Below, one piece after another: positions 717-22,246 of a stretch of 22,246 nucleotides of DNA. Under the pieces are notes generated by a model that was not told where the DNA came from, searched no databases, and saw nothing but the letters and a program-made list of their open reading frames with translations. The position numbers and the translations under genes were made by a program. The first letter of the stretch is position 1; the number at the start of each line of letters is the position of its first letter. This DNA comes from a virus, in the IMG/VR virus record IMGVR_UViG_3300037070_006184, positions 1 to 22,246 of that record. One strand, given 5' to 3'.

Positions 717-2975
717 ATGCCCCTCTCTCTCGTTGTCGACAATAAGCGTGATCTTCGCGACGAGACTGCTCTTCGGCAGTCCGACGAGGACGACCTTTTT
801 GGCCTGAGCGCCCTGGTGCGTCGGTTCGAGGAGAGCGAGGAGGCGTCCTACGAAGCGCGGGAGCTGTCCGAACGCGACCGCCGCTATGTTGATTCAGACC
901 AGCTCGACGAGAAGGAAGTGAAGGAGCTTGAGAAGCGCGGGCAACCGGCGGTGATCATCAACCGGATCAAGAGAAAGATAGATTTTCTGGTCGGATTGGA
1001 GAAGCAGCAGCGGACCCGCCCGCGGGCCTTACCCCGCACGCCGGCGCATGAGCAGGACGCGGAGGCGTGCACGGATGCGCTGAATTATGTGATTGACGAC
1101 ACCGACTTCAAGATGACGCGCAGTGCGGTGTGGCGAAACATGTTGATCGAGGGGACGGGCGCGGTCGAAGTGTGCGTCAAGGGTTATGACGACAGCTACC
1201 AGGGCGATGCGAACGAGATCTGCATTGAGATCAAGCGGTTCAGGTGGGACCGGTTTTTCCACGATCCGCACAGCCTCGAGCTCGACTTCTCGGATGCGAC
1301 CTACTTTGGCGGCGTCTGGTGGATGGATTATGAGGACGCGCTCTCCCGCTGGCCCGACAAGGCGGCTGAATTAGAGCAGACGCTGGCGGGGGCCACGTAC
1401 AGCGACACCTACGACGACAAACCGTCCTATCAGGTCTGGGCCGATCGCAAGCGCAAGCGGGTTCGCATTGTGCAGATGTGGATCAAGCGGACGGGCGGAA
1501 AGAGCGCGGACGCCTGGTATTTTGCGGAGTTCACGAAGGAGGGCATTCTTCTCGACGGCAAGAGCCCGTACGTGACCGACGACGGCGACAGTGAGCCCGG
1601 GATGGTGGCGCAGAGTGCGTACGTTGATCAAGAGGGTGCGCGCTACGGCGCCGTGCGGGAGATGATCAGCCCGCAGGACGAGATCAACAAGCGCAGAAGC
1701 AAATCCCTCCACCTCTTGAACAGCAACCAAATTCTTTACGAGGAAGGTGTCGTCGACGACTTGGAAAAGGCGCGCTCGGAAGCGGCGCGTCCGGACGGAG
1801 TGATCAAGATCGCGCCGGGTGGCCTTGCCGAGAATCGTTTCCAGTTCCGCGAGCGCGTCGACCTTGCCGCCGGGCACATTCAGCTCCTGCAGGAGGCGAA
1901 GAACGAAATCGACCTGATGGGGCCGAATTCGGCGATGATGGGCGAGACCGGCGACAGTGCCAGCGGCCGGGCGATCATGGCGAGCCAGCAGGGCGGCATG
2001 ATCGAGATGGGCGACCTTTTGGACAACCTGCGCTTTTTCGACAAGCGGGTGTACCGGATGGTCTGGAACCGGATAAGGCAGTACTGGACCGGCCAGACGT
2101 GGGTGAGAATCACGGACGACGAGCGCAACGTCAGGTTTGCGGCGCTCAACAAGCCGGCGACCACCCAACTGCCGCTCCCGGACGGGCAGGTGATCGAACT
2201 GCCCGACATCGATCCGGCGACCGGGCAGCAGCGCATCCAAAACAACGTCGCGCAGGCGCAGGTCGACATTTGGATCGACGATGTCAGCGATGTGGTGGCA
2301 CCGCAGATCGAGCAGTGGCAGGCGTTGGTCGAGCTCAAGAAGGTCGACGTCAACAACGAGATACCTTTCGAGGACCTCATTCTGGCGGCGCCGAACATCA
2401 AGAACCGCGATCAGATCGTCGAGCGGATGCAGCAGCGCAAGCAGCAAGCGGCGCAGCAAGGGCAACCGCCGTCGCCGGAAGAGCAAAAATTGGCGATCCA
2501 GGCGAAGCAACAAGAGATGATGGCCGCCGGCAAGGCGCAGGAACATCAGCAACGGCTGGCGTTCGAGCAACAGACGCATCAGCAAACGATGGCGCAGAAG
2601 CAAGAGGAGCATCGGCAGGAGTTGGCGATCGAGGCCAACAAAGCGAAGTTGAAGGCGACCGTCGACGCCGACCTGGCGCGGCAAAAGGTCGACCACGACC
2701 TCGTCGCGGAGGCGCGCAAGCAAGAGCTTTCGGGGCACTATGAAGGCGAGCGGGCGCGGCAATCGCTCGACCACGAGGACCGCCGCGAAGCCGTAAAGCA
2801 GCGCGCCGAGAGCCAGCGCGAGGCCCAAAAGCAAAAGCCGGAACGCGAAGCTGCGACGTCGATCGAGAAGCGGCTTGACGCAATGGCGAAGGCGATCGAG
2901 CAACTCGCCGCTGCCGTCAAGGGCAAGACGTCAGCGCAAGGCTCGTCTTCGAGCCCTAGGAGGCCGGCGCGGTGA
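717..2975 (+). CDS. Portal protein, P22-like family
   Basis: This 752-residue protein would form the dodecameric ring at one capsid vertex through which DNA is packaged and ejected. The length suits the large P22/N4-type portals (about 720-765 residues). Family-like segments include GQPAVIINRIKRKIDFLVG near residues 76-94, a conserved RFRWDRFFHDPHS block near residues 174-186, and the stem/clip region with IKIAPGG and MGPNSAMMGETGDSASGRAI near residues 400-420. From about residue 588 to 745 the protein is a long Gln/Glu/Lys/Arg-rich helix, matching the C-terminal barrel of P22 portal but apparently longer. The ATG start has AGGAT eight bases upstream. Its stop overlaps the GTG of the next gene (GTGA at 2972-2975). 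An antisense open frame of 510 codons over this gene is a GC-content shadow. Assignment is by remembered family pattern, not by a search. Confidence 0.9.
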   Translation: MPLSLVVDNKRDLRDETALRQSDEDDLFGLSALVRRFEESEEASYEARELSERDRRYVDSDQLDEKEVKELEKRGQPAVIINRIKRKIDFLVGLEKQQRTRPRALPRTPAHEQDAEACTDALNYVIDDTDFKMTRSAVWRNMLIEGTGAVEVCVKGYDDSYQGDANEICIEIKRFRWDRFFHDPHSLELDFSDATYFGGVWWMDYEDALSRWPDKAAELEQTLAGATYSDTYDDKPSYQVWADRKRKRVRIVQMWIKRTGGKSADAWYFAEFTKEGILLDGKSPYVTDDGDSEPGMVAQSAYVDQEGARYGAVREMISPQDEINKRRSKSLHLLNSNQILYEEGVVDDLEKARSEAARPDGVIKIAPGGLAENRFQFRERVDLAAGHIQLLQEAKNEIDLMGPNSAMMGETGDSASGRAIMASQQGGMIEMGDLLDNLRFFDKRVYRMVWNRIRQYWTGQTWVRITDDERNVRFAALNKPATTQLPLPDGQVIELPDIDPATGQQRIQNNVAQAQVDIWIDDVSDVVAPQIEQWQALVELKKVDVNNEIPFEDLILAAPNIKNRDQIVERMQQRKQQAAQQGQPPSPEEQKLAIQAKQQEMMAAGKAQEHQQRLAFEQQTHQQTMAQKQEEHRQELAIEANKAKLKATVDADLARQKVDHDLVAEARKQELSGHYEGERARQSLDHEDRREAVKQRAESQREAQKQKPEREAATSIEKRLDAMAKAIEQLAAAVKGKTSAQGSSSSPRRPAR
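2958..2963 (+). promoter_or_regulatory. Perfect Shine-Dalgarno AGGAGG inside the portal gene end
   Basis: AGGAGG lies eight bases before GTG 2972, within the last codons of the portal gene. It supports the GTG start of the head-fibre-like gene in the GTGA overlap and suggests independent ribosome loading in addition to coupling. Confidence 0.75.
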
Positions 2976-5909: not shown

Positions 5910-7001
5910 ATGGCCGACACACTCGCTGCCACGGGCCTACGGGTCCAGCGCTGGGAAGATAAGTTTTTCACCGAATATCTGACGGAAAACAGGTTCTCGG
6001 AGTCGATGGGCTCGGACGAGAACGCCGTCATCCAGGTCAAGGAAGTCCTTGGCAAAGGCAAGGGCGATTCGACGACCCTGGCGCTCGTCAACCGGCTGAC
6101 CAACGCCGCCGTGACGGGCTCGAACATGCTGGAAGGGTTCGAGGAGGACATGTCCTCGAGGAGCCAGCGCGTTTATATCGATAAGAGGCGCAATGCCGTG
6201 CGCATCGCCGAAATGGAGGAGATCAAGTCGGCGATCGATCTGCGCGATGCCGGTAGGGCCACGTTGAAAGACTGGGCCATGAAGGACACCGAGCAATTGA
6301 TCATCGATGCGCTCGCGTCGATCGACGGCGTGGCCTTTGCGACGGCCTCGGCGGGTCAGCGCAACACCTGGAACACCTCCAACTTCGACCGGGTGCTGTA
6401 CGGTGCGGCACGCTCCAACAACGGCGCCACGGCGGGCTCGGTCACGCACGCCAACGCGCTGATCACCATCGACAACACGGCCGACAAACTGACGCCGGGC
6501 GCACTGTCGTTGATGAAGGAAATGGCCGTCCTCGCCGATCCAAAAATTACGCCGATCCGGGTCGAGAAAACGAAAGGGCGCAGGTACTACGTCGTCTATG
6601 CCAACTCACGCGCCTTCCGCGACCTGAAAACCAATACGGCCATTCAGCAAGCACAGCGCGAGGTCTCTCTCGAGGTCGAGAACAACCGGCTTTTCGAGGG
6701 CGGTGACATTCTCTGGGACGGCATGATCGTCAAAGAAGTGCCAGGCATCGGCTTCACCACCAACGGCACCATCGAAACCGGGCCCGTGTACCTGTGCGGC
6801 GCGCAGGCAGTCGCCACGGTGTACGGGAAACGCTGGTCGACGATCACCAAAACCTTCGACTACGGCGACAAATACGGCATCGCCATCGAAGGCATCATGG
6901 GCGTCCGGAAAATCCAGTTCGGCACAGGGGCCAATGATTTGGATGTGCTCAAGGACAACGGGGTCGTAAGTGGATGGTTTGCCGCTGTGGCTTCGGCCTA
7001 G
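5910..7001 (+). CDS. Major capsid protein, DUF4043/N4 gp56-like
   Basis: This 363-residue protein would form the capsid shell. The order of motifs follows the N4 gp56/DUF4043 capsid family as I know it: RWEDKFFTEYLTENRF near residues 14-29, IQVKEVLGKGKGDSTTLALVNRL near 41-63, TGSNMLEGFEE near 69-79, then YIDKRRNAVRIAEMEEIKSAIDLRDAGRATLKDW near 89-122. The middle contains VEKTKGRRYYVVYANSRAFRDLK, and the C-terminal part has the beta-rich W..MIVKEVPGI and FDYGDKYGIAIEGIMGVRK segments. Its length is somewhat shorter than N4 coat (about 400 residues). It follows the scaffold and has a strong ribosome site. A stable hairpin follows the gene. The family assignment is from recognition, not a profile search, and the P22 coat family is the main alternative. 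Confidence 0.88.
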   Translation: MADTLAATGLRVQRWEDKFFTEYLTENRFSESMGSDENAVIQVKEVLGKGKGDSTTLALVNRLTNAAVTGSNMLEGFEEDMSSRSQRVYIDKRRNAVRIAEMEEIKSAIDLRDAGRATLKDWAMKDTEQLIIDALASIDGVAFATASAGQRNTWNTSNFDRVLYGAARSNNGATAGSVTHANALITIDNTADKLTPGALSLMKEMAVLADPKITPIRVEKTKGRRYYVVYANSRAFRDLKTNTAIQQAQREVSLEVENNRLFEGGDILWDGMIVKEVPGIGFTTNGTIETGPVYLCGAQAVATVYGKRWSTITKTFDYGDKYGIAIEGIMGVRKIQFGTGANDLDVLKDNGVVSGWFAAVASA

Positions 7002-7055: not shown

Positions 7056-7502
7056 GTGCCCAAATACCGCTTCATCGACGACGAGCCCGAGGAGAAACCC
7101 GTGGCACGCTTCAGATATTCGAAAACCGATCAGTTCGGAAACAAAGAAAAGGTCACCTTCTACGGGCAGAGTTTCGAGGACGGCGAAGTGACCGAGGTGG
7201 CGGACGAATACGCCGCCAACAAACTGCGCACCGTCTGGAAAGGGGCGTTCGAGGAGGTTGAGGGATCCGATCCCGCCGATGCGGGCGACGAAAACGGCTC
7301 ACCGAAGAAGCGCGGACGGCCGCGCAAGACCGATGAGGAGCGCGAGGCCGAGAAAGCCGAAAAGGAAGCGGAAAAGGAAGCCGAGAAGGAAAAGCGCGAA
7401 GCCGAAAAGGAAGGCGCGCAGCCCCGTTCGGCGTCGAAAATGCCGGCAACGAAGATCACTGAAGCATCCGAGGAAGATTTCAACGAAGGAGAACCTTTCT
7501 GA
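7056..7502 (+). CDS. Small head-region protein with AT-hook-like motif and charged helix
   Basis: A 148-residue protein of unknown function. Residues about 16-70 form a small folded domain (ARFRYSKTDQFGNKEKVTFYGQSFEDGEVTEV) resembling small proteins often found beside phage capsid genes. Residues 84-91 read KKRGRPRK, a classic AT-hook core (GRP flanked by basic residues) that binds the minor groove of AT-rich DNA. Residues 93-119 are an almost uninterrupted Glu/Lys/Ala helix. The tail EEDFNEGEPF is acidic. The GTG at 7056 is chosen because codons from there already end mostly in G or C. An in-frame GTG at 7101 has a better Shine-Dalgarno (GAGGAG, six bases upstream) and is a serious alternative start. 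The ATG at 7051 is out of frame. The stop overlaps the next ATG. Confidence 0.7.
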   Translation: MPKYRFIDDEPEEKPVARFRYSKTDQFGNKEKVTFYGQSFEDGEVTEVADEYAANKLRTVWKGAFEEVEGSDPADAGDENGSPKKRGRPRKTDEEREAEKAEKEAEKEAEKEKREAEKEGAQPRSASKMPATKITEASEEDFNEGEPF

Positions 7503-8360: not shown

Positions 8361-9808
8361 TGGCGACGCCGATCGAGTTCCCGCAATCGAGCCTGCACTA
8401 CTACTTTTCCGGCGGGCATCCGCCGTCGGAGAGCCAAGGGCGCTTGTTAAATTGCTACCTGGAACAGGAAAAAGAGCAGGGCGTCTACAAGCGCGTGCCC
8501 GGCACGGCGCTGTTCACGGACGTCGGCGCCAACTTTCCGCGCGGCTTCATCGAGGCGGACGGCTTCGTCTATGGCGCCTACGAAGACTGCGTCAAGCGCA
8601 TCGATCCGTCAGGGACGGTGACGACGCTCTCGGGCGCACTGCCGGGGATCGATCGTGTCACATGGGCCAAGAACAACCAGGTGGCGACGCCGCCGCGCGG
8701 TCTCGTCGTCGTCACGAACGTCGGCGCCTATTCGGTGACGCCGACGACGGTCGTGCCCTTTCCGGACGGCGACCTGCCGGGAACGCCCTCGAGCGTCTGC
8801 CACCTCGACGGCTATATCTTTTTTACCTACGGCAACGGGCGCATCGTCGCGACCGGGCTCAACGATCTCGAAATCGAGCCGCTGTCGATGACGACCGCGG
8901 AATCGAACCCGGACGGGCTCCTGCGCGGTATCGTCTCGGGCCGGCAACTGTTTGCGATGGGGCCGGCATCGATCGAGGTCTATCAGAACGTCGGCTCGTC
9001 GCCGTTCCCGCTCGCTCGCTCGGCGGTCATCCCGATAGGGTTGATCGGCACGTTTGCCGCGGCCGGGGGCAACGAGACAGATGGCTGGGACCAGACGCCG
9101 CTTTTTGTCGCCTCGGACGGCACGGTGCGCTTTTTCAAGGGCTACGAGCCCGTCGTCGTCTCGACGCGCGCCGTCGAGCATTTCATCGCCGGAGTATCGG
9201 ATCCGGCAACGCTGACGGCTTACGTGTATACGAGCTACGGCAATTCGATCTGGGGCATCCGCGCGATGGGCTCGACGCCGCAGGAGCGCTGCTGGGAATT
9301 CAATACCTCGACCGGACAGTGGCACGAGCGGCAGTCGCAAGGCTTCTTTACATGGCGCGGGCATCGCACCATCCGGGCCTTTGAAAAATGGTTCGTCGGC
9401 GACGTCGGCTCGACCGAATTGCGCACCATCGATGCCCAGATGCAGAGCGAACACCTCACGCCGATTCCGTGCCGGATCGAATCCAAGGTGATGCGCAACT
9501 TCCCGGAGCGACTGGCGGTCAGCCGGGCGGATTTTTCGTTCGCTCCAGGCGTCGGCATCGCCACCGGCCAGGATCCCATCCAAACCGACCCGGTGGCGGA
9601 AATCTCCTGGTCGGACGACGGCGGCGGCACCTGGTCGCGACCGCTGCGAAGGACGATCGGCCGGCAGGGCCAATACGGCTGGGACGTGCGCGTCAACCGC
9701 ACCGGGCTGACGACCAAAGCCGGGCGGCGCTGGCGGGTCGATTTCGCCGATCCGGTGCCGATCGTGTTTTTCGGCGCGACCATGGACGTCGAGGCAAGGC
9801 CCGCATAA
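8360..9808 (+). CDS. P22 gp10-like packaged DNA stabilisation protein (tail hub)
   Basis: This 482-residue protein matches the size of P22 gp10 (472 residues), which plugs the portal channel and forms the tail hub. The N-terminus has GRLLNCYLEQEKEQGVYKRVPGTALFTDVG, typical of the family. Repeated blade-like segments follow (RGFIEADGFVYGAYED, YIFFTYGNGRIVATGL, GRQLFAMGPASIEVYQNVG). The C-terminus has ISWSDDGGGTWSRPLRRTIGRQGQYG...RVNRTGL, the family's closing motif. A longer in-frame start at 8312 exists, but ATG 8360 is preferred because it overlaps the adaptor stop and the protein then begins MATPIEFPQSSL, as relatives do. Its stop overlaps the next start (TAATG at 9806-9810). Confidence 0.9.
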   Translation: MATPIEFPQSSLHYYFSGGHPPSESQGRLLNCYLEQEKEQGVYKRVPGTALFTDVGANFPRGFIEADGFVYGAYEDCVKRIDPSGTVTTLSGALPGIDRVTWAKNNQVATPPRGLVVVTNVGAYSVTPTTVVPFPDGDLPGTPSSVCHLDGYIFFTYGNGRIVATGLNDLEIEPLSMTTAESNPDGLLRGIVSGRQLFAMGPASIEVYQNVGSSPFPLARSAVIPIGLIGTFAAAGGNETDGWDQTPLFVASDGTVRFFKGYEPVVVSTRAVEHFIAGVSDPATLTAYVYTSYGNSIWGIRAMGSTPQERCWEFNTSTGQWHERQSQGFFTWRGHRTIRAFEKWFVGDVGSTELRTIDAQMQSEHLTPIPCRIESKVMRNFPERLAVSRADFSFAPGVGIATGQDPIQTDPVAEISWSDDGGGTWSRPLRRTIGRQGQYGWDVRVNRTGLTTKAGRRWRVDFADPVPIVFFGATMDVEARPA

Positions 9809-12075
9809 TGCCGACCAAACCGCCGCCGATACCGGAATTCAACGTGCCGGTGGCCGATGTTCCAACCGGGCTCATGACGGCAGTCTGGTGGGAGTGGTTC
9901 CAGCGCTTCCTGCGCTGGGACGAGGAATGCTGCGCCGATGGCGACGGCGACGGCGGCGGTGGGGGCGCCGTGTCGTCCGTCTCCGGAACCCCGCCGGTCG
10001 TGGTGTCCGGCACGGCACTCTTGTTGGACGAAGAGCCCATTGCAGAGACAATGGCGGCGGGCAACGTGACGGTCTCGATGCCGGCGGCCACGGGCTCGGT
10101 CAACGGTTACCTGAAGGCGACCGACTGGACGACGTTCAACGGCAAGGCCGACGCAAGCCATACCCACACAGCGGCGCAGATCACGGACTTTTCAGAAGCG
10201 ACAGACGATCGCGTCGCGGCATTGCTCGTCGCCGGCACGAACGTGACGCTGAACTACAACGATGCCGCCGGTAGCCTGACGGTCAACGCCGCGGGCGGCG
10301 GATCAGGCGTTACCGATGGCGACAAGGGCGACATCGTCGTCAGCTCGTCAGGGGCGACGTGGCTGTTCGATTCGAGCGTCGTGACGCCGGCCGCCAAGAC
10401 GGTGCTCGACGATGCCACCGTTGCGGCGATGCGGACGACGCTCGGGGCAGCGCCGCTTGCCTCGCCGGTCTTCACCGGAGATCCGCAGGCGCCAACCCCA
10501 ACCGCCGGAGACAGCGACACCTCGATCGCAACGACCGGTTTCGTTGCCAATGCCGTCTCCGCCATCGGTGTCGGCGGCATGTCGACGGCGGAGTACACGT
10601 ACTCGACGACAACCGGCGTTCCACCTTCGACCGGGCAGTTGCGGGCCAACACCACGACGCAAACCGCGATCACGCAATTCTACCTGCATGAAACCAACGC
10701 GGTCGGCATCGACATCACCAACGCGCTGAAAATCATTGCGACCGGCGTCAAGGTGCTGGTGCAGGACAAGACCAATGCCGCCAACGTTCAGTATTACGTC
10801 GTGAGCGGGCCGGCGGTCGACAACGGCGTTTATTTTACCATTCCGGTCACCTGGGTCTCGACCAGCAGCGGCACGCCGTTCACCGCCGGCAGGGTGATTT
10901 TTGCCGGTTTCGGCATCGGCTCGAACAACATGCCGGAAGCGCCGGCGGACGGGCAGATCTACGGCCGGAGAGGGTCGGACACGTCGTGGCAGGTGCCTGT
11001 GCTGGCGTCGATGCCGGCCTATACGTTCAAGGCCAACAATACGTCGGGTACGGCGGCGCCGACCGATGTCACCATCGCCGGGTTGACGACCAAAGCCTCG
11101 CCGACCACGGCGGATTGGCTGATGATCTCCGACACGGCAGCAACGGGGGCCTTTAAGAAGGTTGCCTGGCCGACCGGGACCTCGACGCCGGCAACCGTTG
11201 CGCCGCTCATGGACGGCGTCGCTGCGGTTGGCACGACGTCCAAGTATGCGCGCGAGGATCACGTCCACCCGAGCGACACGGCCCGGGTCGCGAAGGCCGG
11301 CGATACGATGACCGGCAGTCTCACGATCGACGGCGCAACGGACCGGGTTATTCAGTTTACGAAAGCCGGCAAAAACACATGGGGGCTTTGGGACTACCAA
11401 GCGGACGGTAATTTCTACATCACGCGGTCCAATGCAACGACCGGGGCGGAAATAGACAGTCCGCTGACAATCAGCGGATCGACCGGCCTCATGACCGCCG
11501 GCAAAGGACTCGTGCTGCCGCATGAGGGCGTGGCGGGGTTTGAATATTCGTCGTCGGTGTATTTCAATACGACGAACTACGGCGGCAATAACACTTACAT
11601 GTATCTGACGCATACCGTCGGCGTTGCCGCCTACATGACATTCGTGGTCGGCAGTTCCTCCGCCACGATGAAACTGGACAATCTCGGCAACCTGAGCATC
11701 ACCGGCACCACCGGCACCAAAGCGTCCGGGACGACTTGGGCCAACCCATCGGACGCGCGCGTCAAGGAAGACATCCACGCTTATCCGCAGGGGCTCGCGG
11801 CCATCTGCGGCCTGCGCCCGGTGATGTTCCGCTTCAGGAGTGAGACAAAACAAGTCGATGACGTGCGCGTCGGGCTCATCGCGCAGGAAGCCGAAAAGGT
11901 CATGCCGGGGATCGTCACGACGGCGCCGGGCGGGCTCGGGGACTTGCAGTTTGAGGATTTCAAGTCGCTTGATGCGTCAAACGTCATCTGGGCGCTGGTC
12001 AACAGTTGCCGGCAGCTCAAGGAAATGAACGAGGCGCTCGACGCGCGGCTGAGAGAATTGGAAGGAATCGGCTGA
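9808..12075 (+). CDS. Tail fibre/spike with C-terminal peptidase S74 chaperone
   Basis: A 755-residue protein likely to be the main receptor-binding fibre. The N-terminus is unusual: about 20 residues rich in Trp and Phe (LMTAVWWEWFQRFLRW), a CC pair, then a DGDGDGGGGG hinge, probably the part that docks on the tail hub. The shaft has typical fibre repeats (ADASHTHTAAQITDFSEATDDRV; YAREDHVHPSDTARVAKAGDTMTGSLTI). From Ser648 the sequence SDARVKED gives the Ser-Lys dyad (Ser648 and Lys653) of the S74 intramolecular chaperone, which trimerises the fibre and then cuts itself off; GLIAQEAEKVMPGIV follows. The last 25 residues form a short coiled coil. The start at 9808 is chosen over an upstream in-frame extension because it overlaps the gp10 stop. 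A glycan-degrading domain is not obvious. Confidence 0.87.
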   Translation: MPTKPPPIPEFNVPVADVPTGLMTAVWWEWFQRFLRWDEECCADGDGDGGGGGAVSSVSGTPPVVVSGTALLLDEEPIAETMAAGNVTVSMPAATGSVNGYLKATDWTTFNGKADASHTHTAAQITDFSEATDDRVAALLVAGTNVTLNYNDAAGSLTVNAAGGGSGVTDGDKGDIVVSSSGATWLFDSSVVTPAAKTVLDDATVAAMRTTLGAAPLASPVFTGDPQAPTPTAGDSDTSIATTGFVANAVSAIGVGGMSTAEYTYSTTTGVPPSTGQLRANTTTQTAITQFYLHETNAVGIDITNALKIIATGVKVLVQDKTNAANVQYYVVSGPAVDNGVYFTIPVTWVSTSSGTPFTAGRVIFAGFGIGSNNMPEAPADGQIYGRRGSDTSWQVPVLASMPAYTFKANNTSGTAAPTDVTIAGLTTKASPTTADWLMISDTAATGAFKKVAWPTGTSTPATVAPLMDGVAAVGTTSKYAREDHVHPSDTARVAKAGDTMTGSLTIDGATDRVIQFTKAGKNTWGLWDYQADGNFYITRSNATTGAEIDSPLTISGSTGLMTAGKGLVLPHEGVAGFEYSSSVYFNTTNYGGNNTYMYLTHTVGVAAYMTFVVGSSSATMKLDNLGNLSITGTTGTKASGTTWANPSDARVKEDIHAYPQGLAAICGLRPVMFRFRSETKQVDDVRVGLIAQEAEKVMPGIVTTAPGGLGDLQFEDFKSLDASNVIWALVNSCRQLKEMNEALDARLRELEGIG

Positions 12076-13145
12076 TGGGCCTCTTGGATCTTTTCAGCGG
12101 CGAATCCGGTCGCAATACGGCGATCTGGGGTGCCAACAACACCAACCTCGGCGCGCAGCAACAGCGCGACTACATCAACCGCGGCACCGACTTGAGCCTG
12201 TCCGCGCTGGGCTCCGGCAATGCAATGGCGCGGCAACAGTTGGAGCCCTCGACGACATGGGCCGACCAACGGCTCGGCGAGGCTTGGGGCAGCGCCTTGA
12301 ATACGCTTGCCGCCAACGACCCGAACTATCGCGCTCTCGCCGGACAAGGCGATCAGTATCTCGCCAATGCCGGGCAGCAGGGCGACCAGTATCTCGCCAA
12401 TGCCGGGCAGCAAGCAGACCTCTATTACCAACCGCTCGGCGCTCAGGCGAATGCCGGGTTTTCGGCTTACGGCGATGCGGCCGGCGTCAATGGCGACCAA
12501 GGCCAGACGCGAGCGCGGCAGAACTTCCAGACCGGGCCGGGCTACACCTTTGCCCGGGACGAAGCGCTGAACGCGGCGACCCGCGGCGCCAATGCCGCCG
12601 GCATGACGGCCAGCGGCAATACGATGGATTCGCTGTCGCGGCTCGGCAACAATCTGGCCAATCAGGAATGGGGCTCCTACGTCAACCGGCTCAGCCCGTA
12701 TCTCAACCTCGCGCCGCAGATTGCCGGGCAGCGCGCCGGCTATGCGACCGGCATTGCCGGACAACGCGCCAATCTCGGGCAACAGACGGCCAACCAACGT
12801 GCCACCCTCGGGCAGCAGTTGGCCGGCCAACTGGGCCAGAATCAGCGCGACATCGCCGGCTTGCATACCGGGCTAGGGAACGCGCGAGCCGGTTTGTCGA
12901 CCGGCTACGGCAATACGCTGGCCTCGCTCGCGACTGGCCTCGGCACAAGCCAGGCAGGCCTTTACAGCGACCAGGCGCGCAATCTCTCCAACATCACGGG
13001 CGCCGAAACCGGCACCCTGACCGGGCTCGGCACGGCCGGCCTGCAAGCCGGGCAGCAGGCCAACGCCAATACCTGGAACGCCGGCATGCAGGTCGCCAAC
13101 CTCGCCGCCGATATGTTCGGCAAGGTCAAGAACCCGTTCGGGTAA
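12075..13145 (+). CDS. Ejection-type internal protein with 11-residue repeats
   Basis: This 356-residue, Ala/Gly/Gln-rich protein is probably an internal virion protein ejected with the DNA. Residues about 154-205 hold a motif common in phage DNA-transfer proteins: GPGYTFARDEALNAATRGANAAGMTASGNTMDSLSRLGNNLANQEWGSYVNRL (segments shortened in meaning: residue 154 onward). Two exact copies of GDQYLANAGQQ occur at residues 92-102 and 103-113. Residues 216-347 can be written as twelve consecutive 11-residue units with small or aliphatic residues at positions 1, 4 and 8. The ATG overlaps the fibre stop (TGATG at 12073-12077) and has AAGGA eight bases upstream. Two similar genes follow, as for P22 gp7-gp20-gp16. 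No signal peptide is visible. Confidence 0.7.
   Translation: MGLLDLFSGESGRNTAIWGANNTNLGAQQQRDYINRGTDLSLSALGSGNAMARQQLEPSTTWADQRLGEAWGSALNTLAANDPNYRALAGQGDQYLANAGQQGDQYLANAGQQADLYYQPLGAQANAGFSAYGDAAGVNGDQGQTRARQNFQTGPGYTFARDEALNAATRGANAAGMTASGNTMDSLSRLGNNLANQEWGSYVNRLSPYLNLAPQIAGQRAGYATGIAGQRANLGQQTANQRATLGQQLAGQLGQNQRDIAGLHTGLGNARAGLSTGYGNTLASLATGLGTSQAGLYSDQARNLSNITGAETGTLTGLGTAGLQAGQQANANTWNAGMQVANLAADMFGKVKNPFG
12348..12413 (+). repeat. 33-bp tandem repeat, two copies
   Basis: 12348-12380 and 12381-12413 encode identical 11-residue units (GDQYLANAGQQ) and differ at only two bases, third positions of the second and last codons. The near identity indicates a recent duplication compared with the diverged C-terminal repeats of the same gene. 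Confidence 0.9.
12720..13115 (+). repeat. Twelve-unit hendecad (33-bp) repeat, diverged
   Basis: Residues 216-347 fall into twelve units of 11 residues without gaps: IAGQRAGYATG, IAGQRANLGQQ, TANQRATLGQQ, LAGQLGQNQRD, IAGLHTGLGNA and so on. Position 2 is Ala in the first eight units, position 4 is Gln in the first four and then mostly Leu, and position 8 is often Leu or Tyr. The 1-4-8 spacing is the hydrophobic pattern of hendecad helices. The final three units are weaker. Confidence 0.75.
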
Positions 13146-13157
13146 GAGGGGTTTTCG

Positions 13158-14591
13158 ATGGTTCAATACAATTTCGCACCGCCAGCCATTGATTTCAGCC
13201 CGCTCGGCAGGCTCGGCGAGACCTACGACCGCTCGGTCAAGCGCACGCGCGATGCCGAAGTGGCGGCCAACCGGGAGCGTGCGCTCGCCGGCTTCGGGCA
13301 GAACGGCGATCTTGCGGCGCTCGGCACGACGCTGCTGCGGGCGGGCGACCTTGAGGGCGGGATGCAGGCGCTGCGGCTCGACGCGGCGCAAAAGGGCTCG
13401 CCCTTCCAACGCGAGCGCGCGGCGGCCGAGGATGCGCGTTACGAGCAACAGCGCGCCGATCAGCAAGCGGAGCGCGATCGGCAGGAAGCGGCGAGGCAAC
13501 GCGACGATGCTCGGCAAGATCGACTGCAACCCTACACGGGGACGGATGAATTCAAGGACCCGAGATCTGGCCTCCGCGATCCAGTCACGGGCGATATTTT
13601 CTGGCAGGACGGCACTGTGACGCCAGGGCCGAAGCGTCCCCCCGGACTGCGGTCCGGCGGCGCCGGTGACCCAAACCTGCCGCCGCTCGGCGGCGTACCC
13701 GCGCAATCGATGGTACCGGCCGGGACGAACCCGCCGGATTACGGCTACGTGCTGCCGGGGGCATCCGGCGGGCAGTATCAGCCGATGGGCACCGTGCGGA
13801 TGCCGAAGCCGGACGTCGTGCCGCCGCAGGGCAACGCTGCGGTGGCAGCGCCGCCGCCTGCCGCGCTGCCCATAGCCCCGCCTGCCGAGGCTGGCCCGAC
13901 TGCAATCGCTGCGCCGCCGGCCCCGCAGGCCTCACAGACTGCGGCCTCGGGAACTGCTCCTCCGGTCCAAGGTGCACCGCTCACGGCGACGCAGATCAAC
14001 CAAGGCACCTCCAACATCGCGCCGATGACCAACGCCGAGATGATCGCCGAAGCGCACCGGATTGGTATCTCGCCGGGGCAATATCGGGCGGCACGAGCGG
14101 CGGCAATTCAGAAAGAGATGATCGCGAAGTCGGGAGGGCCCGATCCCGAGAAGAACCTCGGCGAGCAGGCCGGCCGACTGGCCGTCGCCGAGACCTATCT
14201 CGCCAACGCGCCAAAGATCCGCGAGGCAATCGCCAATGGCGAGCAGACGGGTTTTTGGGATCGCACCATGGGGGTCAACAAGATCGGCGAGCAGGGGCAC
14301 GTCCAAAACCAGATCGAGAGCGGCGTCGATGCGCTCGTCCACATGATGACCGGCGCCGGCATGAGCGAGTCGGAGGCGCGCCGCAAGGTCGGGCGCTATG
14401 AACCGGCGCTCCTCGACACATCGACATCGCTCCTCGCCAAGCACGACCAGCTCGTGACCGAACTGAAGCACTGGCGCGAGCTCGCCTATCGCGGCAAGGG
14501 CGCCGCGGGGGCGCTGCCGGAACCGAGTCCCGCGTATGGGGCCGGCAGTAATTCCATCACGCTGGACAACGGCATTAAGGCCACCTGGTAA
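13158..14591 (+). CDS. Internal virion/ejection protein (second of three)
   Basis: A 477-residue protein of modular composition. Residues 1-80 are mixed helical; residues 83-122 form a strongly charged Arg/Glu/Gln helix, probably coiled coil; residues about 150-285 are a Pro/Ala/Gly-rich linker; residues about 290-445 are helical and contain QNQIESGVDALVHMMTGAGMSESEARRKVGRYEP, a segment I associate with structural proteins of rhizobial-type podoviruses. It sits in the middle of three genes in the position of P22 gp20. No enzyme motif is visible. The ATG has GAGGGG six bases upstream, and the stop overlaps the next start (TAATG at 14589-14593). The role is inferred mainly from position. Confidence 0.65.
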   Translation: MVQYNFAPPAIDFSPLGRLGETYDRSVKRTRDAEVAANRERALAGFGQNGDLAALGTTLLRAGDLEGGMQALRLDAAQKGSPFQRERAAAEDARYEQQRADQQAERDRQEAARQRDDARQDRLQPYTGTDEFKDPRSGLRDPVTGDIFWQDGTVTPGPKRPPGLRSGGAGDPNLPPLGGVPAQSMVPAGTNPPDYGYVLPGASGGQYQPMGTVRMPKPDVVPPQGNAAVAAPPPAALPIAPPAEAGPTAIAAPPAPQASQTAASGTAPPVQGAPLTATQINQGTSNIAPMTNAEMIAEAHRIGISPGQYRAARAAAIQKEMIAKSGGPDPEKNLGEQAGRLAVAETYLANAPKIREAIANGEQTGFWDRTMGVNKIGEQGHVQNQIESGVDALVHMMTGAGMSESEARRKVGRYEPALLDTSTSLLAKHDQLVTELKHWRELAYRGKGAAGALPEPSPAYGAGSNSITLDNGIKATW

Positions 14592-17317
14592 TGGAACTCA
14601 AACTCGACGGGCGGACGGTCACGGTTGACGACACGTTCCGTGACCTCTCTCCGGTTGAGCAGAAGGCTTCGCTCGAAAAGATCCATGTGGCAATGAACCG
14701 ACAGGCGGCAACGGAAACGACGGCGGAGGACGTGGCGCAGGGCGTCGGGACCGGGGCGATTGTCGGCGGCCTGATGGGCGGGACCGGAGCGGGCGTTGCG
14801 GGACTCATCAACGATGCCGTGCAGTATCCGACGCAGTACGGCTATCGCGCCATTGATGCCGTGTTGGGCACTGACCTTGCCGAACGCCACGAGCGCTCGA
14901 CCGGCGGCTACATGGGCACGACGCGGGCGTTGACGGAGAACGCGGAGAAACTCGCGGCCAACATTGTTGACCCGCCCGTGTCGAAGGGCGGCAAGATCGC
15001 GCAAGCCGTCACGTCGGGCGGCGTCGAAGCGCTCGCCGGCTCCGGGCTGTTTCGGGTCGGCGGCAGGATTTTTTCATCCTATGACGATGCGGTGAAATTC
15101 GCAGAACAGGCGGGCGTCAATCCGGCAGTCGCCGCAACGATCAAGGAAATGGCGCAGACACCCGTCGTGCAGGGCGTCTATGGCGCTGCGGCCGGGGGCG
15201 GCGGCGAGTTTGCACAACAGAACGACGTTCATCCGCTCTTCGGGACGATTGCGGGACTGGGCGTGGCAGTTGCTGGCCATACAGCGGCTTCCGCAGGCAA
15301 GACAGCGGTTAGGAACACGCTTGCGGATTTTGACGAAAACCTGCAGCGGACAGAGCCTGCGCAGCAGCGGGCTGCGGCAGAGCGGTTGCGCACGTCCGCG
15401 ACCGATCGGCCTGCCTTGGAGGAATGGGCGCGGCGCGGTGAGACCGGCGAGCTGGTGCCGGGGTCCAAGCCGACGCTGTTCGAGGCAACCGGCGACACCG
15501 GCATCGGTGGCCAGGAAAATCGGGCATTCCAACAGGGCACCGAACTCGACCGGGAGACAGGCGCAACCTTCAAGACGGCGATGGAGGAGCGCCGCACGCA
15601 ACAGAATGCGGCGCGGCTCGCCGAGATCGAGAGTGCCGGAGGCGAGGGGCGCAAGGCCGCTGTGCTCGATGAATTCCGCCAGCAACGCGACGCTCTCGAC
15701 CGGACGACGGCAGAGGCGGAAACGGTAGCGCAATCAGGCGCTGATACCGCCGCCGCGCGGGCCGGGACCGCAGCGACGGCGGAGGAAGTCGGGTCCGCCC
15801 TCCGCGATCCGATGGTGACGGCGCAGCGCGACGTCAAGGCGGAGGGCAACAAGTTATACGACGCCATCGGCGCGGAGGGTGTGACGGTCGGCACGGGCCG
15901 GCTGAAGGCTGTCATTGCGCAGCATTATCGGGACATTGCCGAGAATCCGTTGAGCCATGTCGAGAAACAAACGGCGGATCTCGTCAAGAGTTACGGGCCG
16001 CAGCGGGATTTCAACCTGCTCAAGGAATTGCGCACCAGTCTCACGTCGCGGGCCGCGGATCAGGGATTGTCCCTCGTCGAGCGGTTCCGGGCGAAGCAAC
16101 TGCGCAACGCCATCGATCAGGCGATGGACGACGGTTTGGCACGGGCGATCGAGAGCGATTCGAACCTCTTTCAACGTGTCGCCGACACCATGGCGGCCCC
16201 GCCGGGGCTTGAGGCGGGCGACGCGGGCGCGACACAGAGGCTGCGCGAGGCCAATCGCTTCTGGCGCGAGCGGGTGAAGGAGCCCTACGGGGCAAAGCCG
16301 GTCGAGGCAATCGTCAAGGATGCGCGGACGCCGTCCGGGTTCAAGATGACCGAGGCGGCGGTGCCGGAAGCGGCGTTCCGGCCCGGCCCGACCGGCGCGG
16401 AGCATGTCCGCGCTTTGCGGGCGGCGGGAGCGACTGATGCCGCGCTGACTGACGCGGCCGCACTGTCATTTCAGCAAAAGGTCATTCGCGACGGCGCCGT
16501 CAACCCGAATGATTTCCGGCGCTGGGCGCACAATCACGCCGCCGCGATCAGCGAACTGCCGGCGGCGGTGCAGCGCCGGTTCCTCTCGGCGGCGGATGCG
16601 ACGGCAACCTTGCGCGATGCGACCGCCAAGCGCCTGGCAGACCTGCACGACTTCGACCAATCGGCGGTCGGCAAGGTTCTTGGCATTCCCGAGCAGGATC
16701 TGGAAAAGGCCATCAAGTCGTATCTCGAAACGACATCGCAGGCCGAAAAACTGGCGGAGGCGGTCGCCGGCAACGCGGAGGCGCAAGCGGGTCTCCGCCG
16801 GCTTGCCGCCGACTATATCGTCCGTCAATTCACGGGCGCGTCAGATGACATCTCCAAAGCCTCGCTGACGACTTGGCTGAAACGCAATCGGGGTGGCATG
16901 GAGGCGATTTTCGGCAAAGAGGGCGCCACGCGCTTCCAACGGCTGTCGGACGACATCGAGCGCTCGCGCAAGCAAATGACGGTCGGAAAAGACCCAGCCG
17001 GGTCGAGCACTGCCGGTAATCTTGCGAGCATGGTCAAGCCGGCTGCCGGCGCGACCGTCATGACGCTCCTCGCGCACGCGCTCGGCCCGAAAGGGCTCAT
17101 GGTGGCGGGCGCGCTCAAGTCGGTTGCCAGCAATATGAAACTTGCCGGCATGGCAGACGTCGATTCGCTGTTTGCCCGCGCGCTGCTCGATCCCGAGCTC
17201 GCGCGCAAGCTTTTGACCAAGGCGCCGGCGCTCAAGAACGAGAAATTCCGCAAGGGGCTCGGGACGACGATCCTGCGCTCGTCGCTTGCAGGCATGGCAT
17301 ACGGCGGGAATCAGTAA
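14591..17317 (+). CDS. Large internal ejection protein (third of three)
   Basis: This 908-residue protein starts with MELKLDGRTVTVDDTFRDLSPVEQKA, an N-terminal module (DGR..VDD.F..LSP.EQ) that recurs in phage virion ejection proteins. Residues 51-73 are a Gly-rich hydrophobic stretch (GVGTGAIVGGLMGGTGAGVAG) with GxxxG spacing. A second hydrophobic segment lies at about residues 817-843. The centre is long, helical and rich in Ala, Glu, Arg and Gln, with repeated charged coils. The two hydrophobic segments suit a protein that enters the envelope and helps build a channel for DNA, as proposed for P22 gp16. No lytic transglycosylase motif is visible. It overlaps the previous gene by one base and is followed directly (TAAATG) by the second fibre. 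Confidence 0.68.
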   Translation: MELKLDGRTVTVDDTFRDLSPVEQKASLEKIHVAMNRQAATETTAEDVAQGVGTGAIVGGLMGGTGAGVAGLINDAVQYPTQYGYRAIDAVLGTDLAERHERSTGGYMGTTRALTENAEKLAANIVDPPVSKGGKIAQAVTSGGVEALAGSGLFRVGGRIFSSYDDAVKFAEQAGVNPAVAATIKEMAQTPVVQGVYGAAAGGGGEFAQQNDVHPLFGTIAGLGVAVAGHTAASAGKTAVRNTLADFDENLQRTEPAQQRAAAERLRTSATDRPALEEWARRGETGELVPGSKPTLFEATGDTGIGGQENRAFQQGTELDRETGATFKTAMEERRTQQNAARLAEIESAGGEGRKAAVLDEFRQQRDALDRTTAEAETVAQSGADTAAARAGTAATAEEVGSALRDPMVTAQRDVKAEGNKLYDAIGAEGVTVGTGRLKAVIAQHYRDIAENPLSHVEKQTADLVKSYGPQRDFNLLKELRTSLTSRAADQGLSLVERFRAKQLRNAIDQAMDDGLARAIESDSNLFQRVADTMAAPPGLEAGDAGATQRLREANRFWRERVKEPYGAKPVEAIVKDARTPSGFKMTEAAVPEAAFRPGPTGAEHVRALRAAGATDAALTDAAALSFQQKVIRDGAVNPNDFRRWAHNHAAAISELPAAVQRRFLSAADATATLRDATAKRLADLHDFDQSAVGKVLGIPEQDLEKAIKSYLETTSQAEKLAEAVAGNAEAQAGLRRLAADYIVRQFTGASDDISKASLTTWLKRNRGGMEAIFGKEGATRFQRLSDDIERSRKQMTVGKDPAGSSTAGNLASMVKPAAGATVMTLLAHALGPKGLMVAGALKSVASNMKLAGMADVDSLFARALLDPELARKLLTKAPALKNEKFRKGLGTTILRSSLAGMAYGGNQ

Positions 17318-19741: not shown

Positions 19742-22246
19742 ATGGCGAATCCTCTGAGCGACAAAGGCTATTCGGACAGGGATTTCGCTGCGGCTGTCGG
19801 TATCGCCATGGGCGAGACGGGGGCAAATCGGATCAGCAAAGACGAGATGGCGGCGGTCATTGATGTCGCCAAGAACCGGCTCGACACCCCTGAGACGAGG
19901 CATCGAGCGAAGGAAACGAGCCTTTACGGAGTCATAACTGCGCCGGGGCAATTCGACGCCTCGAACCCGCGCGGCAGCAAGGGCGGGCGGGAGAAGTATG
20001 ACGCCGCGTGGAATACGATCATAAACGGAGCGCCAATGCGCCCGGATATGCAAGCGCGCTACAACGAAGCCGTCAAACAGGTCGTGGGCGTTCTCGGGAC
20101 CGGGACGCGGGCGGGCATTGCGCGCAACGCGACAGAGTTTTCCTCGACGGCGAAGAAACTATCCGCAAAAGAAACGCGGATTCACAACGCGCTCGGGAAG
20201 CGAACCGGCACCAAGATCGGCGCTACGACATTCTACGGGCCGCGGCACAATACGAAGGAGAAGCCCTATTCCGGATTCGGGCGCTACGGCACGCCAAAAG
20301 AGGCGCGGGCGCCGCAGCAAACCGCTATCTCCCCAACGTCGTATTCGCGGCATGATCTCGGGCCTTATGGCACGCCGAAGGAAGCCATCCCGGCCGCGAC
20401 CCCTGATATTTCGATGGGGCGGTTTTACGACGAGGCAGCGGCGCCCGCTCCCTACAGCCCCGCGTCGCTCGACTTCGGCCCGGACTTTTCCTCGCCACCC
20501 TCGCAGGCGCGCGGAGCCGTGACGGATCCGTATGGGTTCTCCAACGTCAACACGGCCGTCGAGGCGGCACCCGGCAACTTCGCCGGGTATGGGCCGAATG
20601 CCTTCGCGGGGCTCGACGAGGCACCCGTCGACTACGGGCAGACTTATCCGGACATCACGGCGGGGCTGTATTCTAACGTCGCCGGGATTGCGCCGCCTGA
20701 CGTTCCCGCCGTTCCCGACGTGATGAGCCAATTCGACGCTCCGTCGCGGATGACGGAGCAGGAAGCGATCGAGCGCGCCGGGCTTGCGGGGCAGGTGCCT
20801 TCCGCGAATGTCGAGACGCGCTATTCGGACTACGGCGAAACGGTCGACGAGCAGGTGGCGCGCAATGCGGCAGCGGTTGAGCAGAACGACTACCTTGCCG
20901 CGCTCTACGGCAACATCACCGGCCAGCCGGTCAATCCGGCCTCGTTCACCACGAACCCCTATGAGGTGCCGACCGGGCCGCTGCCGCCGGAGCGGGTCGA
21001 CGCTGGCAGATGGGGCGGCACGACGCCGTTCAACGACAAGTTCGCCGATCTGTCGCTCCCTTCCTTCCAGGAGTACGAAAACCGATCCCCGCTATCGCTC
21101 GCCGATCTCGGCATTGGCGCGATTGCGTCACCGGGGCCGGTCGGCATGGCGAAGGCGGGCGGGGTCGAGTTGCAGCGCGACATCTCTGGCATCTCGGCGG
21201 GGATGTATCCCTATGAGGCGGTTTTCGAGGCGGTGCGCAATGCGCCGACTTCGACGACGCCGATGTCGAACGAGGATTTTAACGCGATCTTCGGCAACCT
21301 GCCGGACGACGCGACTGGATCGGTGCGGGGCGCGCGGGCGGCGCCCGATGCGTTTCCGGTCAACGCACCGCGGGCGGGCGGGCCGTACAGCTTTTCCAAT
21401 ATGCAGAGTTGGGCGCCGGCACCTGACGCCGCGACGATCCCGAACGACGTCACCGGCTACGGACCGGGCGGGGCGTTCTCCTCGCGCGCGCCGGCGCCCG
21501 GGTTCGATTTCGGCAGCATCGTCAACGATACGTTCGGGCCGTATGCGGATGGCGGCGACATTCCGGCCGCGTCGGCGCAAGTGAGCGGGGCGCCGATGAC
21601 GGCCGGCCCCGGTCCGGCCGAGACGGGGATGACATTTCCGGACATCTCCGCCGGGCTCTACGGCGGGCCAGCCGTCACAGCTTCGACGAGCCCCTTCTCG
21701 CCCTCGGCGCTTGGCCCCGCGACCGGGTTCGGCAATTACGGCAATTACGACGCCGTCAACAATCCGGTCGGCTATTCGGCGAAGGAGTTCTCGCAGGCGC
21801 CGAATGTGCCGGCGCCCTCACCACAGATCATCGGCTACGAGCCCGGCAAGACGATCACGCGCGATGTGCCCAACCCGGCGTGGTCCGACTGGTCGCGGGA
21901 GTACGGGACGCGCAACGCGTTGCAGGACGCCTGGCTGGCTGCCGACGAAGACAAGTTCGGAGTTGATCCCATCCGGAGCTCGTTCGTGTCGCGACCGGCC
22001 GAACCGGCGCGGACGATCCAGCGAGAGAAGACTTTGCCGGCCACGCCGATTTACGGTCCTTCCGTGCCGGCGGTGAACGCGCAGCCTGTGTCGGCACCCA
22101 TGCAACCGTCAACCTGGTCGCCCGGCATGACCGCGCAGGCGAATGCGTTCGGGTCGCTCCTCGGCAGCATCGGCGGCTATGGTTTGCAAGGGGTGCCAGG
22201 GACGTTTGCGGGCGGCTTCGACCTTGCCGCCCTAGGCGGTGGCTCT
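19742..22246 (+). CDS. SleB-like cell-wall hydrolase with long disordered region (3' truncated)
   Basis: The frame is open from ATG 19742 to the window end, 835 residues without a stop; a TAG at 19733-19735 in the same frame limits the start. Residues about 12-166 follow a SleB/CwlJ (Hydrolase_2) pattern: IAMGE with a candidate catalytic Glu25, DVAKNRL 22 residues later, SLYGVITAPGQFDA near 60-73, and IGATTFYGP near 159-167. In relatives the last motif usually reads ATH or GAxYYNP; here His is absent. This fold cleaves peptidoglycan glycan strands. From about residue 170 on, the protein is rich in Gly, Tyr, Pro, Ala and Asn, with repeated YGTPKEA, PYGFSN/PYSFSN, GYGP and PDI(T/S)AGLY motifs, probably disordered. 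It may be a virion-associated hydrolase or an endolysin fusion; its size favours a virion role. Confidence 0.65.
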   Translation, partial: MANPLSDKGYSDRDFAAAVGIAMGETGANRISKDEMAAVIDVAKNRLDTPETRHRAKETSLYGVITAPGQFDASNPRGSKGGREKYDAAWNTIINGAPMRPDMQARYNEAVKQVVGVLGTGTRAGIARNATEFSSTAKKLSAKETRIHNALGKRTGTKIGATTFYGPRHNTKEKPYSGFGRYGTPKEARAPQQTAISPTSYSRHDLGPYGTPKEAIPAATPDISMGRFYDEAAAPAPYSPASLDFGPDFSSPPSQARGAVTDPYGFSNVNTAVEAAPGNFAGYGPNAFAGLDEAPVDYGQTYPDITAGLYSNVAGIAPPDVPAVPDVMSQFDAPSRMTEQEAIERAGLAGQVPSANVETRYSDYGETVDEQVARNAAAVEQNDYLAALYGNITGQPVNPASFTTNPYEVPTGPLPPERVDAGRWGGTTPFNDKFADLSLPSFQEYENRSPLSLADLGIGAIASPGPVGMAKAGGVELQRDISGISAGMYPYEAVFEAVRNAPTSTTPMSNEDFNAIFGNLPDDATGSVRGARAAPDAFPVNAPRAGGPYSFSNMQSWAPAPDAATIPNDVTGYGPGGAFSSRAPAPGFDFGSIVNDTFGPYADGGDIPAASAQVSGAPMTAGPGPAETGMTFPDISAGLYGGPAVTASTSPFSPSALGPATGFGNYGNYDAVNNPVGYSAKEFSQAPNVPAPSPQIIGYEPGKTITRDVPNPAWSDWSREYGTRNALQDAWLAADEDKFGVDPIRSSFVSRPAEPARTIQREKTLPATPIYGPSVPAVNAQPVSAPMQPSTWSPGMTAQANAFGSLLGSIGGYGLQGVPGTFAGGFDLAALGGGS

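Follow-up and report, generated by a model that had tools for sequence, protein, structure and literature searches.

What is the 356-residue protein that is encoded directly behind the tail fibre gene of this virus, and what might its 11-residue repeat be for? The window, by which we mean the whole stretch of 22,246 nucleotides that was analysed, contains a P22-type structural module in which the portal, capsid and fibre genes are followed by open reading frames for 356, 477 and 908 residues.

Gene order and family of the 356-residue protein

The genes relevant for this question are the following:
717..2975, + strand: P22-like portal protein (Pfam P22_portal, E 2e-106)
5910..7001, + strand: major capsid protein (Phage_capsid_3, E 9e-46)
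9388..12075, + strand: tail fibre with a C-terminal Peptidase_S74 domain, by domain match
12075..13145, + strand: putative gp7-like ejection protein, 356 aa (phrog_598 match)
13158..14591, + strand: putative second protein of the ejection cassette (gp20 position), 477 aa, assigned by position and without a family match
14591..17317, + strand: putative third protein of the ejection cassette (gp16 position), 908 aa, likewise assigned by position and without a family match

The order gp7-gp20-gp16 of P22 is found in the window downstream of the portal and capsid genes, and most relatives with enough contig also carry the gp7-like gene followed by a gene for a protein of ~470-620 residues and then by a longer one. 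Two other reading frames may be mentioned here. Right behind the capsid gene lies a 148-aa ORF (7056-7502) with a AEKEAEKEAEKEK tandem stretch and the basic, AT-hook-like motif KKRGRPRK, and an ORF of at least 835 aa (19742-22246) without a PHROG match runs past the window end.

The earlier note had proposed an ejection-type protein, and sequence comparison supports this label. The 356-aa protein matches PHROG 598 'DNA ejection' across its conserved core (E 3.1e-7, profile positions 61-185), P22 gp7 belongs to the same family (E 1.4e-97), the cassette is syntenic, and the core profile of the window family in turn finds P22 gp7 weakly. Going by these profile matches, P22 gp7 is a remote homologue of the window protein, which would occupy the slot of P22 gp7 and T7 gp14 and be the smallest of the ejection proteins in a short-tailed phage of the P22 type. 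P22 gp7 (DNA transfer protein p32) shares with it the profile-level homology through the core and the downstream gene order but differs in its length of 229 aa and its cleaved leader of 20 residues, whereas the window protein starts with MGLLDLF, without an extension ahead of this motif comparable to the P22 leader, and has arms of 115 and 116 residues (see below). In P22 the N-terminal leader is cut off by the host protease OpdA, a step that is not known to be general in the family.

Relatives of the window protein are scarce among deposited phages, and tblastn in two bacterial-genome scans found none. One relative that is in culture is Pseudoalteromonas phage vB_PspP-H6/1. A sequence search of the PDB with the window protein alone as query gave noise only, no P22 gp7 homologue was found there among the solved structures, and the family profile (A5) matched neither T7 gp14 nor the phiX174 H protein among the PDB sequences. 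According to the literature, P22 and T7 themselves have ejection proteins without a recognisable sequence relationship (PMC8402733). In our literature search, which used an incomplete library, no paper tied hendecads to podovirus ejection proteins, and only the phiX174 H protein surfaced.

The 11-residue repeat

The 11-residue repeat of the window protein is real. Residues 216-347 indeed divide into twelve gapless 11-residue units, Ala occupying position 2 of units one to eight, as had been claimed earlier, yet only about ten of these units are genuine since the last two (GQQANANTWNA and GMQVANLAADM) depart from the pattern. The periodicity analysis that had been suggested for this region gave lag 11 as the best among lags 1-40 (identity 0.306, z 7.0), with 0/2000 shuffles as strong, and an aliphatic spectrum with its peak at 3.65 residues and a power of 15.3, which again none of 2000 shuffles reached. 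When ten proteins of the window were tested, a strong lag-11 signal was seen only in the 356-aa protein (z 8.4; runner-up 2.8). The best lag of the N-terminal 215 residues is again 11 (z 5.1). This half holds the two identical units GDQYLANAGQQ that had been described for residues 92-113 and is periodic also outside of them. At the DNA level, both arms contain a tandem repeat:
12348..12413, + strand: 33-bp tandem duplication coding for the two identical 11-residue units of the N-terminal arm (96% matches)
12756..12831, + strand: 33-bp tandem repeat with 2.3 copies in the C-terminal arm

The 908-aa protein (14591-17317) was also found to have an aliphatic period, in this case of 3.81 residues (P ~0.0005 by shuffling).

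Among the five closest homologues, the C-arm units carry an aliphatic residue at position 1 in 72%, at position 4 in 58% and at position 8 in 56%, and A, S or G at position 2 in 90%. Charges amount to 0-26% per position and follow no K/E pattern; the arms are rich in Q and N, and about a quarter of the C-arm units have R at position 5. In 73 homologues, lag 11 stood out as the strongest in either arm, among lags 1-59 for the C-arm (observed/expected 1.53) and among lags 1-49 for the N-arm (1.85), with the z-scores over this set not being independent as the sequences are related. Gap lengths in the homologue alignment peak at 11, 22 and 33, and the insertions in an alignment of the three closest sequences are mostly multiples of 11; a broad alignment of eight sequences was too divergent for pattern scans. 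Judged from these comparisons, the hendecad period is conserved and expands and contracts among relatives.

Arms of matching length on both sides of a constant core

The main feature of the protein is one that the earlier note did not contain, namely two equal arms flanking a constant core. In the window protein these parts are:
12075..12419, + strand: N-terminal arm, residues 1-115 (MGLLDLFSG... to the core), predicted hendecad-periodic helix (periodicity, landmarks, AlphaFold)
12420..12704, + strand: conserved core of ~95 residues (116-210; NFQTGPGY...AAGMTASGNT...NRLSPYL), presumed hairpin tip (profile alignment, AlphaFold)
12705..13052, + strand: C-terminal arm, residues 211-326, ~10 hendecads (repeat statistics, landmarks)
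13053..13142, + strand: C-terminal anchor (QQANANTWNAG...) and tail, residues 327-356 (anchor profile)

With the motif MGLFDxF at the start, a core profile of 95 positions and a profile of the C-terminal N-x-W segment as landmarks, 87 non-identical homologues were measured, and 76 of them had a confident C-terminal landmark. In 75 of these 76 proteins the N-arm equals the C-arm within one residue, around a core that stays constant at ~95 residues. The length classes (N-arm/C-arm) are 49/49 with 58 proteins, 53/53, 60/60, 75/75, 82/82, 86/86, 93/94, 104/105, 115/116, which is the window protein, and 159/159 or 160. The correlation between both arms is 0.9997, and when the ten length classes were permuted 1,000,000 times, no permutation came as close. 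Differences in arm length from 49 are 11n or 11n+4, corresponding to full helical turns of 3.67 residues each. The five closest homologues, measured with slightly different landmarks, have N-arms of ~94-160 and C-arms of 106-172 residues with a constant difference: the exact equality of the arms hinges on the placement of the core borders, but the constancy of the difference between N- and C-arm does not.

The only confident exception to equal arms is L165 (L165:1935-2870) with 60/64, a mismatch of one turn. This protein is close to L091 (75/75) and is possibly an evolutionary intermediate. A second deviating homologue, L079 with 63/71, has a weak anchor. As the family itself had supplied the landmark profiles, and the cut-off, a score of 8, was picked after the scores had been seen, the cleaner test is provided by four homologues that were obtained after the rule had been framed. 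They showed 86/86, 135/137, 49/49 and 46/46, with two of the four below the cut-off (L205 with 7.0 and L207 with 3.4) and the N-arm of L206 counted from MGLMDAF. In the 135/137 homologue the start is two residues shorter, and 137 equals 49 + 88. The C-terminal anchor is not recognisable in P22 gp7, so that its arm lengths are not measurable, and the counts given here exclude P22 gp7 and other deposited phages without the landmarks. Unlike those of the window protein, the arms of P22 gp7 also gave no significant hendecad signal. In two homologues (L140:852-1865 and L136:1989-2867) the conserved start Met is replaced by Ile (IGLFDLF and IGLFSLF), possibly reflecting an ATA/ATT/ATC-type start or a sequencing error.

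In a tree built from the core only, parsimony needs 14 changes of the arm-length class, and in several pairs with 79-91% identical cores both arms differ by an equal amount. The simplest reading of matched arms that change together is an antiparallel helical hairpin which grows by whole turns. This co-varying pair of arms is a new element beyond the earlier repeat finding. As an internal constraint read from sequence only, the equal-arm rule predicts that the fold is an antiparallel hairpin, and it connects the gp7 type with the gp14 type. One could also think of the repeats as neutral low-complexity expansions that arose by replication slippage and have no structural meaning, as 33-bp tandem duplications occur in both arms. 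We consider this scarcely credible, since the arms stayed matched through the ~14 changes with steps of 11n or 11n+4 and the hydrophobic register is conserved, and the equal-arm rule already contradicts it.

The equal arms also bear on the suggestion of the earlier note that the repeat might coat or bind membranes as amphipathic helices do in synucleins and LEA proteins. The 11-residue units themselves, the Gly and Ala content and the hydrophobic residues at both chain ends would fit such a role. However, synuclein and LEA 11-mers are charged with conserved Lys/Glu positions, whereas the C-arm of the window protein has few charges and no Lys pattern, and coating a membrane does not need arms of equal length. 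With arms that are poor in charges, lack the K/E pattern and have their lengths locked together, membrane coating is not supported and we regard it as very improbable.

Predicted fold and a possible role in DNA ejection

AlphaFold predicted for the window protein one long helix, three short ones and again a long helix (mean pLDDT 71, pTM 0.47), and the same layout for a relative of 217 aa (pLDDT 73, pTM 0.48). The window model has helices 10-79 and 83-136 for the N-arm and, for the core, helices 140-153, 157-175 and 181-206 with a pLDDT of mostly 80-93, the core being the confident part of both models. The prediction, which is of moderate confidence, together with the period conserved in relatives agrees with the helical hendecad protein that had been proposed, and supports a helical hairpin fold, against which it counts that the arms are rich in Gly, unusual for long helices.

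The top structural match for the model of the 217-aa relative was the hairpin of the antifreeze protein Maxi (4ke2, Z 9.8), and T7 gp14 (8e4g_a) ranked second of 733 chains with Z 9.6 and an rmsd of 3.6 Å over 126/127 residues. Both are folded-back helices, indicating a hairpin also for the relative's model. For long helices a Z below 13 can be a generic match, so we take these matches as support and not as proof. The list obtained with VIA-align for the window model contained mainly helical bundles and some pore-forming helical proteins and was treated as generic. Foldseek gave no significant match in the PDB for either model, and among viral models its best match reached E 2.6e-7 and a 'DNA transfer protein' ranked second. 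Maxi, a hyperactive type I antifreeze protein, is a hairpin of long helices made of Ala-rich 11-residue repeats at ~3.7 residues per turn (PMC5304152). It resembles the relative's model in being a helix hairpin with 11-residue repeats, which in a fish antifreeze protein would be convergence only.

Among ejection proteins, T7 gp14 shows what such a hairpin might do. In the DNA-ejected particle it consists of a pair of antiparallel helices with a short loop between them, and six copies extend the tail channel (PMC11784390). It takes the same place in the ejection operon as the window protein but differs in having no 11-residue period, a point against our reading, and a short loop where the window protein has its core of ~95 residues. 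P22 gp7 is ejected, is present in ~12 copies per virion and has been proposed to build the virion-proximal conduit (PMC8402733), and DEV gp73 and N4 gp52 have an outer-membrane-channel role in other podoviruses (PMC10925440, PMC12633501). The H tube of phiX174 has hendecads in its N-terminal part and Q, N and R side chains pointing towards the DNA (PMC7354561); H has hendecads in common with the window protein, whose arms are likewise rich in Q and N, but it contributes one helix per subunit to a decamer, has mostly heptads and is not a hairpin. By analogy with T7 gp14 and phiX174 H, the tube that the earlier note had imagined is plausible for the window protein, which most likely is a hairpin forming the first segment of the ejection channel.

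Our whole explanation, to which we would assign a probability of about two in three, is a gp7-like antiparallel hendecad hairpin that assembles into the ejection channel and whose length is set by its hendecads. The chain would run as a long N-terminal helix to the conserved three-helix tip formed by the core and return alongside as a long C-terminal helix, placing the N-terminus and the C-terminal N-x-W segment at the same end. The 11-residue repeat, at 3.67 residues per turn, would keep a straight aliphatic stripe towards the partner helix, the Ala/Gly faces would permit close packing, and the hendecads would hold the long helices straight and in register. As the arms must stay paired in this proposal, both would change length together and grow by whole turns, chiefly in steps of 11 residues (33 bp). 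After leaving the virion, several hairpins would line up next to each other and make up the virion-proximal portion of the DNA channel, comparable to the six copies of T7 gp14, with the number of hendecads setting the length of this segment: ~175 Å for the arms of 115-116 residues found here and ~75-240 Å across the family, at 1.5 Å per residue. We infer that the hendecad arms may make up the wall of the DNA-ejection channel, a wall of tunable length.

The hairpin could even act as a molecular ruler, its hendecad count setting the channel length and being selected for the span of the envelope, the tail or the portal. We put this forward only tentatively; no description of such a ruler was found for short-tailed phages. 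The hairpin may also be real but have its length set by storage in the virion, where it would wrap or line the portal barrel so that the arms fit the portal and not the envelope. Before ejection, T7 gp14 is wound about the portal barrel (PMC11784390). In P22 the ejection proteins are located near the portal barrel, and 12 copies of gp7 would be enough to fill the channel of the portal (PMC8402733). Arm lengths spanning from 46 to 160 residues speak against this explanation, which appears unlikely to us although it deserves attention. Under the channel reading, the family supplies naturally occurring variants of a single channel protein, whose predicted rods measure ~75-240 Å, and these make the fit of the ejection channel to the cell envelope directly testable.

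The Peptidase_S74 (endosialidase) chaperone domain usually occurs on trimeric tail proteins. It is fused C-terminally to five gp7-like relatives (L004:11062-12138, which is KX257490 gp17, L047:2863-3756, L061:1090-2034, L071:2577-3512 and L092:2746-3621), which would suit arms forming a parallel, fibre-like homotrimeric coiled coil. We consider such a coil improbable, as it gives no reason for N- and C-arms of equal length within one chain. A trimer of hairpins is possible and would fit both the equal arms and the fusion. The fusion may point to trimeric assembly of the hairpins or to processing of the fused proteins before packaging.
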